A stretch of 64,000 nt of DNA from Lachnospiraceae bacterium FE2018 (lineage in GTDB: Bacteria; Bacillota; Clostridia; Lachnospirales; Lachnospiraceae), in assembly GCA_000702845.1 (NCBI GenBank), contig JNKK01000002.1:62001-126000 (forward strand), given 5' to 3'. Each line of letters opens with the position of its first letter. Position 1 is the first letter of the stretch. The translations under genes and the position numbers were made by a program. The notes beneath the pieces were generated by a model, which worked only from the letters and a program-made list of their open reading frames with translations, was not told the origin of the DNA and did no database searches. Positions 57,556 to 62,918 of the stretch are shown one piece after another.

Positions 57556-57599
57556 GACATGCTTTACAGGGGAGAAGAACATGTAAGGTGTGTCTTTTT
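57556..57599 (+). terminator. Leader terminator before the secreted repeat protein
   Basis: GACATGCTTTAC (57556-57567) pairs over 12 positions (several G-U) with GTAAGGTGTGTC (57583-57594), then five T, only about 6 nt before the AAGGAGG ribosome site. Confidence 0.75.
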
Positions 57600-57618
57600 A
57601 TTTAAGGAGGTTATATCT

Positions 57619-59607
57619 ATGCGATCTGAAAAGCTGAAAAGGTTCTGTGCGGTGCTTCTCTCGGTGCTGATACTCTTTACGATGATGCCGTCTCTCGCAC
57701 TGGCAGATGATCCCGTTATGTATGCAATCACAGTTGATACCGGGATTTCATACGGAGGAACAGTGAACGTTCAGGCAGAGGCTGCAGAAGGAGATATTGT
57801 CACATTTACTTTGATGCCGGATGAAGGCTATACTTATAAGAAAGAAAAAGTGACTGTAACAGGGAATGATGGAGAAGTGTCTGTGACGGGCGAAGGCCCT
57901 GAATTCACATTTGAAATGCCTGCTTCTGCTGTCACGATTACGGCGGAATTTGTGCGCGAAAGTACCATTGAGGTAAAAACGGCAGAGCATGGAAATGTTC
58001 AGGCTGATAAAGAAAAAGCGTGCACGGGAGATACTGTCACATTTACTGCAGTACCTGAAGAAGGTTATGAGAGAGTAAGTGTAACTGTAAGTGGAAGTGA
58101 TGGGGAAGTATCTGTGACGGACGAAGGCTCGGATACATTCTCATTTGAGATGCCTGCTTCTGTTGTCACGATTACGGCTGCATTTACACCGATTGAGAGT
58201 GACGTTGTGGTAGAAACGGCAGAGCATGGCAGTATCGAGAGTAATAAAGAAACAGCTTGCACTGGCGATACTGTTACACTCACAGTTAAACCGGATAATT
58301 ACTATAAATTAAAGTCGCTGCATTATGTAGTGGAAGGAAAAGCTCCGGTAGAGATTACGGATCATCCTTCTGATAATACGTATACGTTTACAATGCCGGG
58401 TGCAAAGGTCACAGTTGTTCCGGAGTTTGAGGATATCATTTACACGATCAGTGCCGATCCGGATATGAAGAATGGTTCTGTCACGTTTACAGATGACAGT
58501 GGAAATCCAGTAATAGGCGCCAAGTATTTTGGCAGAGTCAACGTAAATGTCGATCCGGATTCGGGCTATCTGCTTGAAACAATCCACGCAGAAGGCGGCG
58601 GCAGACGATACGACGATATTTTCAGCGAATCCAGCGGCAGATATTATATCAGCGCAATGCCTGCTGTTGACCTGACGGTATACGCGACATTTAAAACACA
58701 TACACACGCGCTGGTGCATACTGCGGCAGCGTCGCCTTCATGCGAAACGAGCGGAAATGTCGAGTACTGGCACTGTGAGGAGTGCAGCTCATATTTTACT
58801 GATGCCGAAGCTACGAATAAGATCAGAAGAGCCGATCTTATTCTCCCTGCAATCGGACACAGCTGGGGTGCCTGGACTGTGACGAAACAGCCGACTGCAA
58901 CCAAAGCAGGCGAAAAGAAGCGCGTTTGCAAACATGACAGTTCTCATATTGAGACTGAGAAGATTCCGGCAACCGGAAAGAAGGAAACGCCGACACCCAC
59001 ACCGGAAAAAAAGAAACCGGAAAAATCCACTAAAAAAGAGGTTTTAGTTGCAAAAGCAAAGACGGGAACAAATCAGGTGACACTGTCCTGGAATAAAATC
59101 AAAGATGCGGACAGATATGTCATTATGTTCAGCAAGTGCAATGACAGCGAAAAAGACTATAAAGTAAAGAAGATTAAAACTGTAAAGGCAAATGTTCTTA
59201 AGTATACAGTTAAAAAGCTTGAAAACGGCAGATGCTATAAATACAAGATTATTGCACAGAAGAAGAAGAAAGGGAACTATAAAAATCTCGCAAAAACATT
59301 CCTGAGTCATACGATTATCGGAAACGAAAGCAGTCATGAGGCGGTGCCGAAGAGTCTGAAACTGAACAAAAAAGCAGTTACGCTCACGGCGGGCAAGACG
59401 GTTAAGCTGAAAGGAAAGATTAAACTGTATAATTCAGAGAGAGAAATCATGTCACATGCCCCGGCCCTCAGATTTGCCACCAGTGATCCGGGTGTTGCGA
59501 CTGTGAGCACGGCTGGAAAAATCACAGCAAAAAAGAAGGGGACATGTACGGTCTATGCGCAGACCATCAACGGAATCTGCCAGAAATGCAAGGTGACGGT
59601 TAATTAA
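57619..59607 (+). CDS. Secreted multidomain surface protein (InlB-B-like repeats, FN3, BIG2)
   Basis: 662 residues; the ATG at 57619 follows AAGGAGG. Signal peptide 1-30 (VLLSVLILFTMMPSLALA). Residues about 35-270 hold three to four divergent InlB B-type repeats, each with TVxTAEHG or similar, GDTVTFTxxPxEGY and SFEMPASxVTITAxF. Near 385-450 is a Cys-containing segment (SCETSGNVEYWHCEECSSYF) common in clostridial surface proteins, then a Pro/Lys linker, a fibronectin-III-like domain (VTLSWNKIKDADRYVIMFS) and a C-terminal BIG2-type domain (FATSDPGVATVSTAGKITAKKKGTCTVYAQ). No sortase motif or membrane anchor, so it is released or held by non-covalent contacts. Probably adhesion or wall scaffold. 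Controlled by a leader with a terminator. Confidence 0.9.
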   Translation: MRSEKLKRFCAVLLSVLILFTMMPSLALADDPVMYAITVDTGISYGGTVNVQAEAAEGDIVTFTLMPDEGYTYKKEKVTVTGNDGEVSVTGEGPEFTFEMPASAVTITAEFVRESTIEVKTAEHGNVQADKEKACTGDTVTFTAVPEEGYERVSVTVSGSDGEVSVTDEGSDTFSFEMPASVVTITAAFTPIESDVVVETAEHGSIESNKETACTGDTVTLTVKPDNYYKLKSLHYVVEGKAPVEITDHPSDNTYTFTMPGAKVTVVPEFEDIIYTISADPDMKNGSVTFTDDSGNPVIGAKYFGRVNVNVDPDSGYLLETIHAEGGGRRYDDIFSESSGRYYISAMPAVDLTVYATFKTHTHALVHTAAASPSCETSGNVEYWHCEECSSYFTDAEATNKIRRADLILPAIGHSWGAWTVTKQPTATKAGEKKRVCKHDSSHIETEKIPATGKKETPTPTPEKKKPEKSTKKEVLVAKAKTGTNQVTLSWNKIKDADRYVIMFSKCNDSEKDYKVKKIKTVKANVLKYTVKKLENGRCYKYKIIAQKKKKGNYKNLAKTFLSHTIIGNESSHEAVPKSLKLNKKAVTLTAGKTVKLKGKIKLYNSEREIMSHAPALRFATSDPGVATVSTAGKITAKKKGTCTVYAQTINGICQKCKVTVN

Positions 59608-59651
59608 GTTAAGTGATCCATGAACTTTTGGTGAAGTCCTGACAGACTGTA

Positions 59652-59680
59652 TTGGAATACCACGGCATGTATGATATGAT
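59652..59680 (+). promoter_or_regulatory. Promoter before the GG-motif peptide
   Basis: TTGGAA (59652-59657), 17 bp, TATGAT (59675-59680). Confidence 0.6.
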
Positions 59681-59711
59681 ATAGCCACTTTCGGAAAGGT
59701 GTGTGAATAAT

Positions 59712-59933
59712 ATGGGAAATATGTCTGAAAAAGAAATAGCTGCAAAGGGCAGGATCAAAGGAAAACTTGAAGAATTGATGCCGAAGGGCTCTGTGGTGGA
59801 TGATGCACTGCTTGATAAGGTTGCAGGCGGTCTGTCAGAGGAGGCGTTTCTCTCACAGATTTCGAATATTGAACTGATCATGGCAGATGCAAAACCCTAT
59901 CCGGGAGGACTTGGAGGAACTAAGAAAAAATAA
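59712..59933 (+). CDS. Small peptide with double-glycine-type leader
   Basis: 73 residues from the ATG at 59712 (GTG at 59703 is an alternative; GGAAAGG lies upstream). The first 38 residues form a charged helix-like leader ending LLDKVAGG (33-40), the form of bacteriocin and RiPP leaders cut by C39 peptidase transporters. The 33-residue remainder LSEEAFLSQISNIELIMADA then KPYPGGLGGTKKK has no Cys and few Ser/Thr, so it is not a classic lantibiotic core. No modifying enzyme or ABC exporter is adjacent; instead a membrane SpoIIE-type phosphatase starts 20 bp later, so both are probably cotranscribed. Function unknown: secreted signal, atypical RiPP, or a cytoplasmic partner. Confidence 0.7.
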   Translation: MGNMSEKEIAAKGRIKGKLEELMPKGSVVDDALLDKVAGGLSEEAFLSQISNIELIMADAKPYPGGLGGTKKK

Positions 59934-59953
59934 ACTGGAGTCCTTAAGAGCAG

Positions 59954-61714
59954 ATGAAACAAAGCAGTAAAAAAAATATTTCACTGAAAACAAAAGCGTT
60001 CCGTGTCATAGTGGCCGGGACGCTGTTGTTGATTTTTATGATCAGTGCGGCCAGCTTCGGGCTGTATTCTTTTGAATCACTTCGGAATTATCACGACGAG
60101 GCATCCAACCTTATGGACTACGCGATGTCCATGGAGGACATGACGTATATCGAAAAGATTTTCCGGAAAACGAAGGATATTTATTTTGCGCTGCCGGATG
60201 ACGTGCGGCGTGAACCATCCTCAGAGGAATTCATGGATGCGTTCCGTCCGCTGGTTGACGATGATTTCTATCAGGCGCGCGATATACTGGTCCGGTGCTG
60301 GGAGCAGACAGAGAACCGCAATGTATTTCTGATGTTCACAGATCCGGAACTGAGCGCCATTGTCTATGTGGTTGACGGTGATCAGATCGAATGGGCGTAC
60401 CTCCCGGGACAGTGGCTGGAATCTGATCTGAATCAGATTGAAGAGATTTCCCGGTCATCCTGGAAGCTGCGCATCACACATACAGACGAATATGGATGGG
60501 TCGGAACAGACTATCAGCCGATTACGGCGGAAGACGGCAGTCAGATCGGGTATATCGTCATCGATGTTGATATCAATGATTTCTTTAACAAGATCAGACG
60601 CTTTCTGATCATTATGATACCGGCGGCAGTCCTCATGATAGATCTGACAGCGCTGCTGGCATCCAGACTGCTGCGGAAGCACGTGATTCTTCACGTGACG
60701 GATCTGGCAGCTGCGGCGAAATCCTACACGGAACGGGACAAGCTGGAAAATCTGAATGAAACGACATCACACTTTGCGCAGCTGCAGATCAATACCCGGG
60801 ACGAACTGGAAGATCTCTGGCGGACCATGACAGACATGGAAAATGACATCAGCGATACGATGCGGCGGCTCGTAAAAGTGACAGCTGATCAGGAGCACCT
60901 TAACGCGGAGCTATCAATCGCTACCGAGATTCAGGTTGGTACACTGCCGCATACATTTCCCGCGTTTCCGGAGCGTCATGAGTTTGATATTTACGCATCT
61001 ATGGTACCGGCAAAAGAAGTCGGCGGCGACTTCTATGACTTTTTCCTGATAGATGAAGATCATCTGGCACTTGTCATTGCGGATGTGTCCGGCAAGGGAA
61101 TCTCTGCGGCGCTGTTTATGATTAATGCGAAGGCGGCCATTCAGAATCAGACACAGCAGGGAACAAGGGAGATATCGGAAATATTCGCAAATGTGAATGA
61201 ATATTTGTGTGCGCAGAATAAGGCAGAGATGTTCGTTACGGCATGGCTCGGGATTCTTGAACTTTCGACCGGGCGTGTACAATACGCAAATGCCGGACAT
61301 GAGTATCCTGCAGTCCGGAGATGCTGCGGCAGCGGTACAGAAACCGATACCGGATTATTCCGGATCGAGAAGGATGTGCACAGTATGCCGCTTGCCGCAA
61401 TGGAAGGCATGCGGTTCCGGTCGGCAGAATTCTTCCTGGATCCCGGAGATACTTTATTTGTCTATACAGACGGTGTGACGGAAGCAAACAATGCAGAAAA
61501 TGAGTTGTTTGGAACTGAACGGATGCTGCAGGCACTGAACCGGGAACCGGACGGAAGTCCGCAGCAGCTGGACGAAACTGTCAGGGAAGCCGTTGCGGCG
61601 TTTGCCTCTGGCGCGCCGCAGTTTGATGATATGACAATTCTCTGTCTGAAATACTTTGGCAGCGGAGAGAATCAGAAGAATACAGATGGGCATCTGACGG
61701 ATGCGAAAGGTTGA
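59954..61714 (+). CDS. Membrane-bound SpoIIE/RsbU-type protein phosphatase
   Basis: 586 residues. A helix at 14-36, an extracytoplasmic sensor of about 180 residues (up to VIDVDINDFFNK), a second helix at about 217-238, a HAMP-like segment, a coiled coil (about 285-320) and a PP2C-type SpoIIE domain (about 330-570): EIQVGTLPHTFP, AKEVGGDFYDFF (metal Asp), VIADVSGKGISAALFM (metal Asp/Gly), NAGHEYP, FVYTDGVTEA and PQFDDMTILCL. Such proteins dephosphorylate anti-anti-sigma factors or similar phosphoproteins in response to outside signals. No sigma/anti-sigma genes are nearby. The start is weak, AGAGCAG only. It follows the GG-motif peptide by 20 bp. Confidence 0.93.
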   Translation: MKQSSKKNISLKTKAFRVIVAGTLLLIFMISAASFGLYSFESLRNYHDEASNLMDYAMSMEDMTYIEKIFRKTKDIYFALPDDVRREPSSEEFMDAFRPLVDDDFYQARDILVRCWEQTENRNVFLMFTDPELSAIVYVVDGDQIEWAYLPGQWLESDLNQIEEISRSSWKLRITHTDEYGWVGTDYQPITAEDGSQIGYIVIDVDINDFFNKIRRFLIIMIPAAVLMIDLTALLASRLLRKHVILHVTDLAAAAKSYTERDKLENLNETTSHFAQLQINTRDELEDLWRTMTDMENDISDTMRRLVKVTADQEHLNAELSIATEIQVGTLPHTFPAFPERHEFDIYASMVPAKEVGGDFYDFFLIDEDHLALVIADVSGKGISAALFMINAKAAIQNQTQQGTREISEIFANVNEYLCAQNKAEMFVTAWLGILELSTGRVQYANAGHEYPAVRRCCGSGTETDTGLFRIEKDVHSMPLAAMEGMRFRSAEFFLDPGDTLFVYTDGVTEANNAENELFGTERMLQALNREPDGSPQQLDETVREAVAAFASGAPQFDDMTILCLKYFGSGENQKNTDGHLTDAKG

Positions 61715-61718
61715 AAAC

Positions 61719-62918
61719 GTGAAAATACAATTTGACACCAGGGCAATCAAACCAAAGCTATATCATCTGATCATTCTTGCGGTGCTGACAGTGGTAACGC
61801 AGCTGATTCTGCTGTCCGGGGAAGATCCCGCGCGGCAGCGCGGTGCCGTAATCATACTGGTACTGTACTTTCTGGCTATGATTATCTGCCTGTGGGACGC
61901 GTTCTTCAAACAGCTGCAGTACAATCCATATTCATATAACACGATTATTTATGCAGGATTTGGACTGTTCTGCGTGTTTCTGCTGGTGACGCATATCTAT
62001 CTTACCGTGCAGAGCATCACCGATCCGCAGGGGATGCTGCGGGAACGTATCTTATACGTCCTGTACAATTCCGCAAAAAACTATATGCTGATTACAGCGC
62101 CGTTTCTGGTCGTGTTTTCAGTACTGCTGTTCATCTCCAACATCTCCCTGATCCGGCATGAGGGCAGACGGTTCGTAAATCTGCTCGGTATCCTGCTCTC
62201 GGTTTTCCTTGTAGCAGGAGAGATCCTTGTGTTTGCCCTGGACCGGTATCTGGGCGGAAGTACACTGCTTACGAACCTGATTGCTGTTCTTTATCTCTAT
62301 TTTGAGTGCATGATCATCGGCACCATTATTGCGGACAGCATTGCTGCGAAATATGTGCCGGAGCGGAATAAGGATTTTCTGATTGTGCTCGGATGCGGCA
62401 TCCGGAAGGACGGAACGCCGACACCGCTGCTTCGGGGAAGAGTGGATCTGGCACGGAAGTTCCGGGAACGGCAGATGCGAGAGACCGGAAAACAGGCTGT
62501 ATTTGTTCTTTCCGGCGGACAGGGACCGAATGAGGTGCAGTCTGAGGCGGCTTCCATGCGGGACTATCTGATTGCGCAGGGGGTGGCACAGGAAGATATC
62601 ATTGTGGAAGATCAGTCTGAGAGCACAGCGGAAAACATGCGTTTTTCAAAAGAGAAAATCGATGCGGTCAATCCGGATGGAAAAGTCGCGTATTTTACGA
62701 CCAACTACCATGTATTCCGGGCCGGTCTGAAAGCCCGTCGTGTGAAAATGCGCGCGCAGGGCATGGGTGCAAAGACAAAATGGTATTTCTGGCCGAATGC
62801 GGCGGTGCGGGAATTTGTCGGACTGATCACGGAGCACCGCCTGAAACAGGGGCTGCTGCTGGGCGGACTGCTGCTGGGGTATGTATTGCTTTCATTCTTC
62901 AACGCAGGATACTTGTGA
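61719..62918 (+). CDS. YdcF-like (DUF218) membrane protein
   Basis: About 399 residues; the GTG at 61719 has AAAGG at good spacing, whereas the ATG at 61701 lies inside the previous gene. Five or six N-terminal helices (to about 215) are followed by a DUF218 domain: DFLIVLGCGIRKDGTPTPLLRGRVDLA, FVLSGGQGPNEVQSEAASM, VEDQSESTAENMRFSKEKI and YFTTNYHVFRAGLKARR, then a final helix. Relatives such as SanA and ElyC act in envelope integrity or vancomycin tolerance. The last codons (FFNAGYL) are encoded within the dispersed repeat that begins at 62893, so the C-terminus may have been reshaped by its insertion. Confidence 0.92.
   Translation: MKIQFDTRAIKPKLYHLIILAVLTVVTQLILLSGEDPARQRGAVIILVLYFLAMIICLWDAFFKQLQYNPYSYNTIIYAGFGLFCVFLLVTHIYLTVQSITDPQGMLRERILYVLYNSAKNYMLITAPFLVVFSVLLFISNISLIRHEGRRFVNLLGILLSVFLVAGEILVFALDRYLGGSTLLTNLIAVLYLYFECMIIGTIIADSIAAKYVPERNKDFLIVLGCGIRKDGTPTPLLRGRVDLARKFRERQMRETGKQAVFVLSGGQGPNEVQSEAASMRDYLIAQGVAQEDIIVEDQSESTAENMRFSKEKIDAVNPDGKVAYFTTNYHVFRAGLKARRVKMRAQGMGAKTKWYFWPNAAVREFVGLITEHRLKQGLLLGGLLLGYVLLSFFNAGYL

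Follow-up and report, generated by a model that had tools for sequence, protein, structure and literature searches.

The peptide gene, the phosphatase and their neighbours

The window, by which we mean the whole stretch of 64,000 nucleotides analysed here, carries a gene for a small peptide immediately in front of a gene for a membrane phosphatase, both on the forward strand. The peptide gene (59712..59933; ATG at 59712, TAA at 59933) encodes 73 residues: residues 1-40, MGNMSEKEIAAKGRIKGKLEELMPKGSVVDDALLDKVAGG, constitute the leader and residues 41-73 the predicted 33-residue product, LSEEAFLSQISNIELIMADAKPYPGGLGGTKKK, which is free of cysteine, weighs 3507 Da unmodified and has a net charge of 0 when K/R and D/E are counted. 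The leader ends in the GG-type recognition stretch VVDDALLDKVAGG (59793..59831, + strand), placed in the sequence by the rule given in PMC6363468 and PMC7018657, with V-12, L-7, V-4, A-3, G-2 and G-1; cleavage is predicted after codon 40, Gly40 (59829-59831). Just before the start codon, GGAAAGG (59693..59699, + strand) is the likely ribosome-binding site, and its GAAAGG is kept in both relatives that possess the pair. Throughout, G000 denotes the genome of the window, G001 and G003 these two relatives, and G002 and G004 the other genomes of the genus.

The substitution pattern shows that the peptide ORF is a real protein-coding gene under purifying selection, since dN is far below dS: dN and dS are 0.132 and 1.30 against one of the two relatives and 0.131 and 1.58 against the other, and G003 compared with G001 gives a dN of 0.031 and a dS of 0.57, so that in all three pairwise comparisons nonsynonymous changes per site lie far below synonymous ones. 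Compared with the window, dN is about 0.09 in the leader half and 0.18-0.19 in the product half, the latter changing roughly twice as fast. For the phosphatase gene, comparison with the window gives figures of the same order (dN 0.15-0.16, dS 1.4-1.5).

The phosphatase gene (59954..61714, + strand, ATG at 59954) encodes 586 residues with a Pfam SpoIIE match of 162.8 bits. Hydrophobic segments are found at about residues 18-36 and 217-235 (n=2) and the catalytic SpoIIE domain at 367-567; residues 40-214, approximately, would thus form an extracytoplasmic domain. The motifs GGDFYD, DVSGKG, YTDG and FDDMT are all present, and their Asp residues, which we take to be metal-binding, are invariant across seven aligned proteins. 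The best structural matches of the phosphatase model are the PPM phosphatases Rv1364c, RssB, SiaA and SpoIIE domains. The full-length model has a mean pLDDT of 68.0, with residues 145-184 below 50, and the isolated sensor, built from two sequences, reaches 43.6. Values this low make the modelled sensor unfit for recognising a peptide site, and for this reason we claim no ligand class for the sensor. To our knowledge, few of the signals read by extracytoplasmic RsbU/SpoIIE-type phosphatases have been identified. The earlier note was right on the anatomy of the locus: a 73-residue ORF whose first 40 residues end in VVDDALLDKVAGG and leave 33 lies 20 bp before the sensor phosphatase (59933 to the ATG at 59954), and the SpoIIE score together with the two hydrophobic segments identifies the latter as a membrane SpoIIE-type enzyme.

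Upstream lies a gene for an InlB-B-repeat/Big_2/fn3-like surface protein (57559..59607, + strand); by eye, a protein resembling its C-terminus occupies the same place in both relatives. The phosphatase is followed in the window by a DUF218 membrane protein (61701-62918) that stands between it and a CobW-type gene, whereas in G001 and G003 the CobW-type gene comes directly, without DUF218. At another locus, L032, a DUF218-like gene also follows a phosphatase.

The earlier note had credited the peptide with a promoter of its own, and this did not hold up. The promoter-like TTGGAA-17-TATGAT (59652..59680, + strand) does not exceed chance (2 promoter-like matches found, against 0.9, sd 1.0, in shuffles), and it sits in a gap between the upstream ORF and the peptide of 104 nt in the window (59608-59711) versus 27 nt in both relatives, which lack the 77 extra bases. 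At chance level and in a gap that is not conserved, it was rejected as a feature of the peptide-phosphatase pair. Because the peptide starts just 27 nt past the upstream ORF in the relatives, transcription of the unit probably continues there from the preceding gene.

Leader type and exporter

According to PMC6363468 (eLife), on the Lachnospiraceae protease LahT, C39 recognition involves hydrophobic residues at -4, -7 and -12 plus GG (or GA/GS). V-4, L-7, V-12, G-2 and G-1 are common to all three orthologs, in agreement with a GG leader, and the GG site proposed in the earlier note is invariant in all of them. An additional leader position, -15, is named in PMC7018657; here the peptide departs from that description, with a Gly.

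Two matrices were used to score the leader. With one made from 18 leaders of the genus, the peptide itself left out, the peptide ranks first of 645 ORFs of the window, and when its residues are shuffled 20,000 times its score is reached in 5 cases; HMMER with the same leaders also ranks it first, with a weak E of 0.073. This test is not fully independent, because the search that yielded the 18 leaders relied in part on a pattern and a profile derived from the peptide. The second matrix was made from two exporter-side leaders only, found by their place beside the exporter, and again puts the peptide first of the 645 ORFs: it scores 14.8, the nearest runner-up, which lacks GG, 12.4, and 39 of 20,000 shuffles reach the score.

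A seven-row leader profile that includes the peptide itself yields 18 candidate precursors in G000, six each in G001 and G003, and 0 in both G002 and G004. On our own reading the 18 comprise the peptide, the exporter-side peptide, one zinc-ribbon-like protein, one other and 14 SH3-like proteins; the count is uncertain, as several of them sit on short contig ends. A degenerate leader pattern matches nine times in G000 against once for the reversed control, eight of the nine lying in leader-like ORFs. In 15 other genomes it matches six times, as does the control; four of these six matches are in G001 and G003, all leader-like, and two fall in long unrelated frames.

The small SH3-type proteins of G000 are a group in themselves: about 14 short proteins (for example L082:7576-7848, L144, L157 and L161) combine a leader resembling MTDMNK(L/I)NA..LE.V.GG with an SH3-like domain behind it; of two that were scanned, one passes the SH3_3 cut-off of Pfam and the other falls short of it. 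They are apparently exported by the C39 system. The zinc-ribbon-like protein, with two Cys pairs by eye and a GG-type leader, occurs in G000 (L084:5978-6361), G003 (L146) and G001 (L152).

Membership of the peptide in the Nif11, NHLP, bacteriocin or lanthipeptide families was considered and rejected: no Pfam and no NCBIfam family matches at E <= 10, and the Nif11/NHLP leader models TIGR03798 and TIGR03793 give no match.

A C39-type transporter, for which the earlier note had suggested a search, does exist. The NHLM-type exporter of G000 includes a C39 peptidase and lies above the cut-offs of both TIGR03796 (908.1 bits, cut-off 853.3) and TIGR03797 (733.9, cut-off 709.4); PMC2887384 describes three NHLM exporter families. 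For the HlyD-like subunit, TIGR03794 finds a 160-residue protein with 31.9 bits against a cut-off of 156.2. Beside the exporter, a 93-residue ORF carries KLNDDQLDAISGG, whose leader grammar is shared with VVDDALLDKVAGG of the window peptide. A C39 domain is present in G000, G001 and G003. From these sequence features we consider it very probable that the peptide is exported as a 33-residue product after C39 cleavage at GG.

Conservation of the pair and distant relatives

The peptide was found in three of the five genus genomes; the copies in G001 and G003 are 78% identical and have the same length of 73 residues. In both, surface protein, peptide and phosphatase follow one another as in the window, and the gap between peptide and phosphatase is 16 nt (with a TTG start assigned) against 20 nt in the window. 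Neither a peptide nor a phosphatase sensor, C39 domain, STAS domain or leader-profile match was found in G002 and G004. Across the five genomes the presence of the peptide therefore follows that of the exporter, a correlation of weak statistical weight at n=5 and with G002 and G004 smaller and 85-90% complete. The pairing put forward in the earlier note is conserved: in each of the 3 genus genomes that have a phosphatase ortholog, VAGG is invariant and the peptide precedes the phosphatase, so that neither of the outcomes named there as refuting occurred. The pair is seen in this one genus only.

No credible peptide ortholog was found in the other 192 of 195 genomes, nor in the other 396 of 397 family genomes searched with a three-row profile; G001 and G003 do not figure among the hits of the latter search and were evidently outside its sample. 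At E <= 1, 112 of the 397 genomes have a match, the window's own included. A single match outside the genus is convincing (G236, E = 2e-4), the remaining ones starting at E = 0.005. Several were rejected individually: in G119 the match is inside a 226-residue protein, in G466 it is antisense in a tRNA-synthetase-like frame, in G459 it is inside a 515-residue frame, and in G355 the frame has no GG leader. The other family-genome matches, with E from 0.005, were dropped on score alone. In 392 genomes of the order, a GG-product profile gave, besides the window, three matches with E of 0.008-0.018 in frames of 335-420 residues, which were dismissed as chance; G236 was not among its hits. Plasmids, phages and viral contigs contained no distant homologue of the peptide.

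The G236 peptide, read as 97 residues, has a leader with a sub-threshold Nif11 match (20.3 of 32.3 bits) that ends at GG. Its product starts with INSMAFLSQIKN and that of the window with LSEEAFLSQISN, GG-xxx-AFLSQI being common to both. By eye, its short contig has no phosphatase and carries two more GG peptides. At the sequence level this match supports the assignment of the window peptide as a GG precursor; on the phosphatase it has no bearing. Counted together, the GG peptides of this contig (locus L165, G236:C45) are three in tandem with Nif11-like leaders (two were scanned, both below cut-off), and protein-kinase-like and response-regulator-like genes are seen there by eye.

On the side of the phosphatase, 25 loci with related sensor stretches were compared: three have the pair, and no GG peptide was found at the 22 others, where inspection by eye shows a STAS or RsbW-type gene next door in at least six cases. 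Among 60 family genomes there were 78 SpoIIE hits, and none of the 77 loci examined besides the window's, some of them cut by contig ends, has a GG peptide gene immediately in front of that for the phosphatase. Of 3182 small ORFs near these loci, one scores above the window peptide. It belongs to another genus (G062, L278:4821-13719), where a gene pair for an RsbW-type protein and a SpoIIE phosphatase is separated by one PAP2 gene from an oppositely oriented NHLM cluster, with 921.4 bits for TIGR03796 (above cut-off) and 697.4 for TIGR03797 (just under). The cluster's own GG peptide is below cut-off for NHLP and Nif11; the gene of this candidate runs opposite to that of the phosphatase and does not immediately precede it. 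Noticed post hoc, the arrangement is a single instance among 77 loci and could be due to chance.

As for targets, there is no STAS or anti-sigma gene beside the phosphatase of the window; elsewhere G000 has three STAS domains, and its SpoIIE domains at E <= 1e-15 number five. One STAS gene, on contig C8, shares its contig with no SpoIIE hit, and no PPM motifs were found around it or around its counterparts in G001 and G003 (11-13 kb each). Because no SpoIIE/PPM phosphatase was found near it, we take the C8 STAS gene as a first guess for the target.

Possible roles of the peptide and known systems

The sequence data support a real gene, a leader motif, an exporter, a conserved pairing and a phosphatase signature. 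From there we tentatively propose that the 33-residue peptide may be sensed by the extracytoplasmic domain of the phosphatase. The precursor would be recognised through its GG leader by the cell's NHLM-type exporter, which would cut after Gly40 and release the 33-residue peptide. The phosphatase, probably encoded on the same message, would most likely read the peptide with its two-TM extracytoplasmic domain, either directly or via an effect of the peptide at the cell surface, and a change in its activity towards a phosphorylated STAS protein, exerted by the cytoplasmic PPM domain, would follow; phosphatases of such PPM kind act on STAS proteins, as stated in PMC11418112. In this way the bacterium would keep a partner-switching pathway informed of its own density or of its export activity.

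Almost as likely as sensing is plain co-transcription, with no contact between peptide and phosphatase. The peptide would then be an exported GG peptide, bacteriocin-like or another public good, whose gene merely shares an operon with the phosphatase, for example because the latter governs a state in which both are needed. This would fit the scattering of other GG precursors of the genus over many contigs, the related sensor phosphatases that stand without a GG peptide and the restriction of the pair to one genus. It sits less easily with the neutral charge of the predicted product, with the lack of any known immunity family among four neighbouring genes scanned with Pfam, and with an adjacency kept in 3 of 3 genomes in spite of a change in what comes behind the phosphatase (DUF218 versus CobW-type).

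That the peptide stays in the cytoplasm and regulates the phosphatase or its target, the GG stretch being incidental, seems improbable to us. Purifying selection on leader and product parts alike (dN as above) would suit such a role, as would the failure of every Pfam and NCBIfam leader family to match; against it, leader models made without the peptide rank it first of 645, its leader grammar is that of the exporter-side peptide (VVDDALLDKVAGG / KLNDDQLDAISGG), and among the five genus genomes it occurs in those that have the exporter. Finally, the small size of the ORF and its place just before the phosphatase start might suggest a chance ORF or a leader-type regulatory element of the phosphatase message, a notion hardly credible and in practice refuted by the substitution pattern of the three comparisons and by the length of 73 kept in three genomes.

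Returning to sensing by the phosphatase, a more specific version would be a quorum-type circuit: the NHLM-exported GG peptide would be the ligand of a transmembrane PPM phosphatase and relay cell density to a STAS/anti-sigma partner switch rather than to a two-component system, with the NHLM cluster beside the RsbW-SpoIIE pair of G062 as a second instance of the same coupling. We regard this version as rather unlikely. Be that as it may, a self-encoded peptide of exported type in front of a sensor phosphatase is a concrete candidate ligand.

ComC and BlpC are GG peptides of peptidase-containing ABC transporters (PCAT). Like these, and like the Lah and Rtg precursors, the window peptide has a V-A-G-G end and hydrophobic residues at -4, -7 and -12, and in both cases the product is short and the genome encodes a C39 exporter. 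The window leader differs in its 40 residues and in the Gly at -15; moreover, the next gene here encodes a PPM phosphatase rather than a histidine kinase, an immunity protein or a RiPP enzyme.

With the NHLM systems and their NHLP/Nif11 leader peptides, as described in PMC2887384, the genome shares TIGR03796 and TIGR03797 matches over the cut-offs, and the peptide of another genus that shares the product start (G236) has a weak Nif11 match. In contrast to those systems, the window peptide matches neither leader model and has no Cys in its product, no modification enzyme was found among the five genes scanned, and the HlyD-like part is short and sub-threshold. The phosphatase has the catalytic domain and Asp motifs of the partner-switching enzymes of RsbU/SpoIIE/SiaA type; it differs from them in having a peptide gene in front and no STAS or anti-sigma gene beside it.

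We found no report in the open-licence literature of a GG peptide coupled with a SpoIIE/RsbU/PP2C phosphatase. Taken singly, the GG peptide, the NHLM exporter and the sensor phosphatase belong to known kinds, and we did not find them coupled in that literature; the arrangement would be new if sensing is right, and otherwise an ordinary exported peptide in an operon. The ComCDE type is a peptide pheromone-receptor operon, and it likewise has a small precursor of exported type directly before a membrane sensor, sensing being putative in our case. Unlike in ComCDE, the receptor output here would be a phosphatase; if this is true, Gram-positive peptide signalling would gain another kind of membrane receptor output besides histidine kinases.
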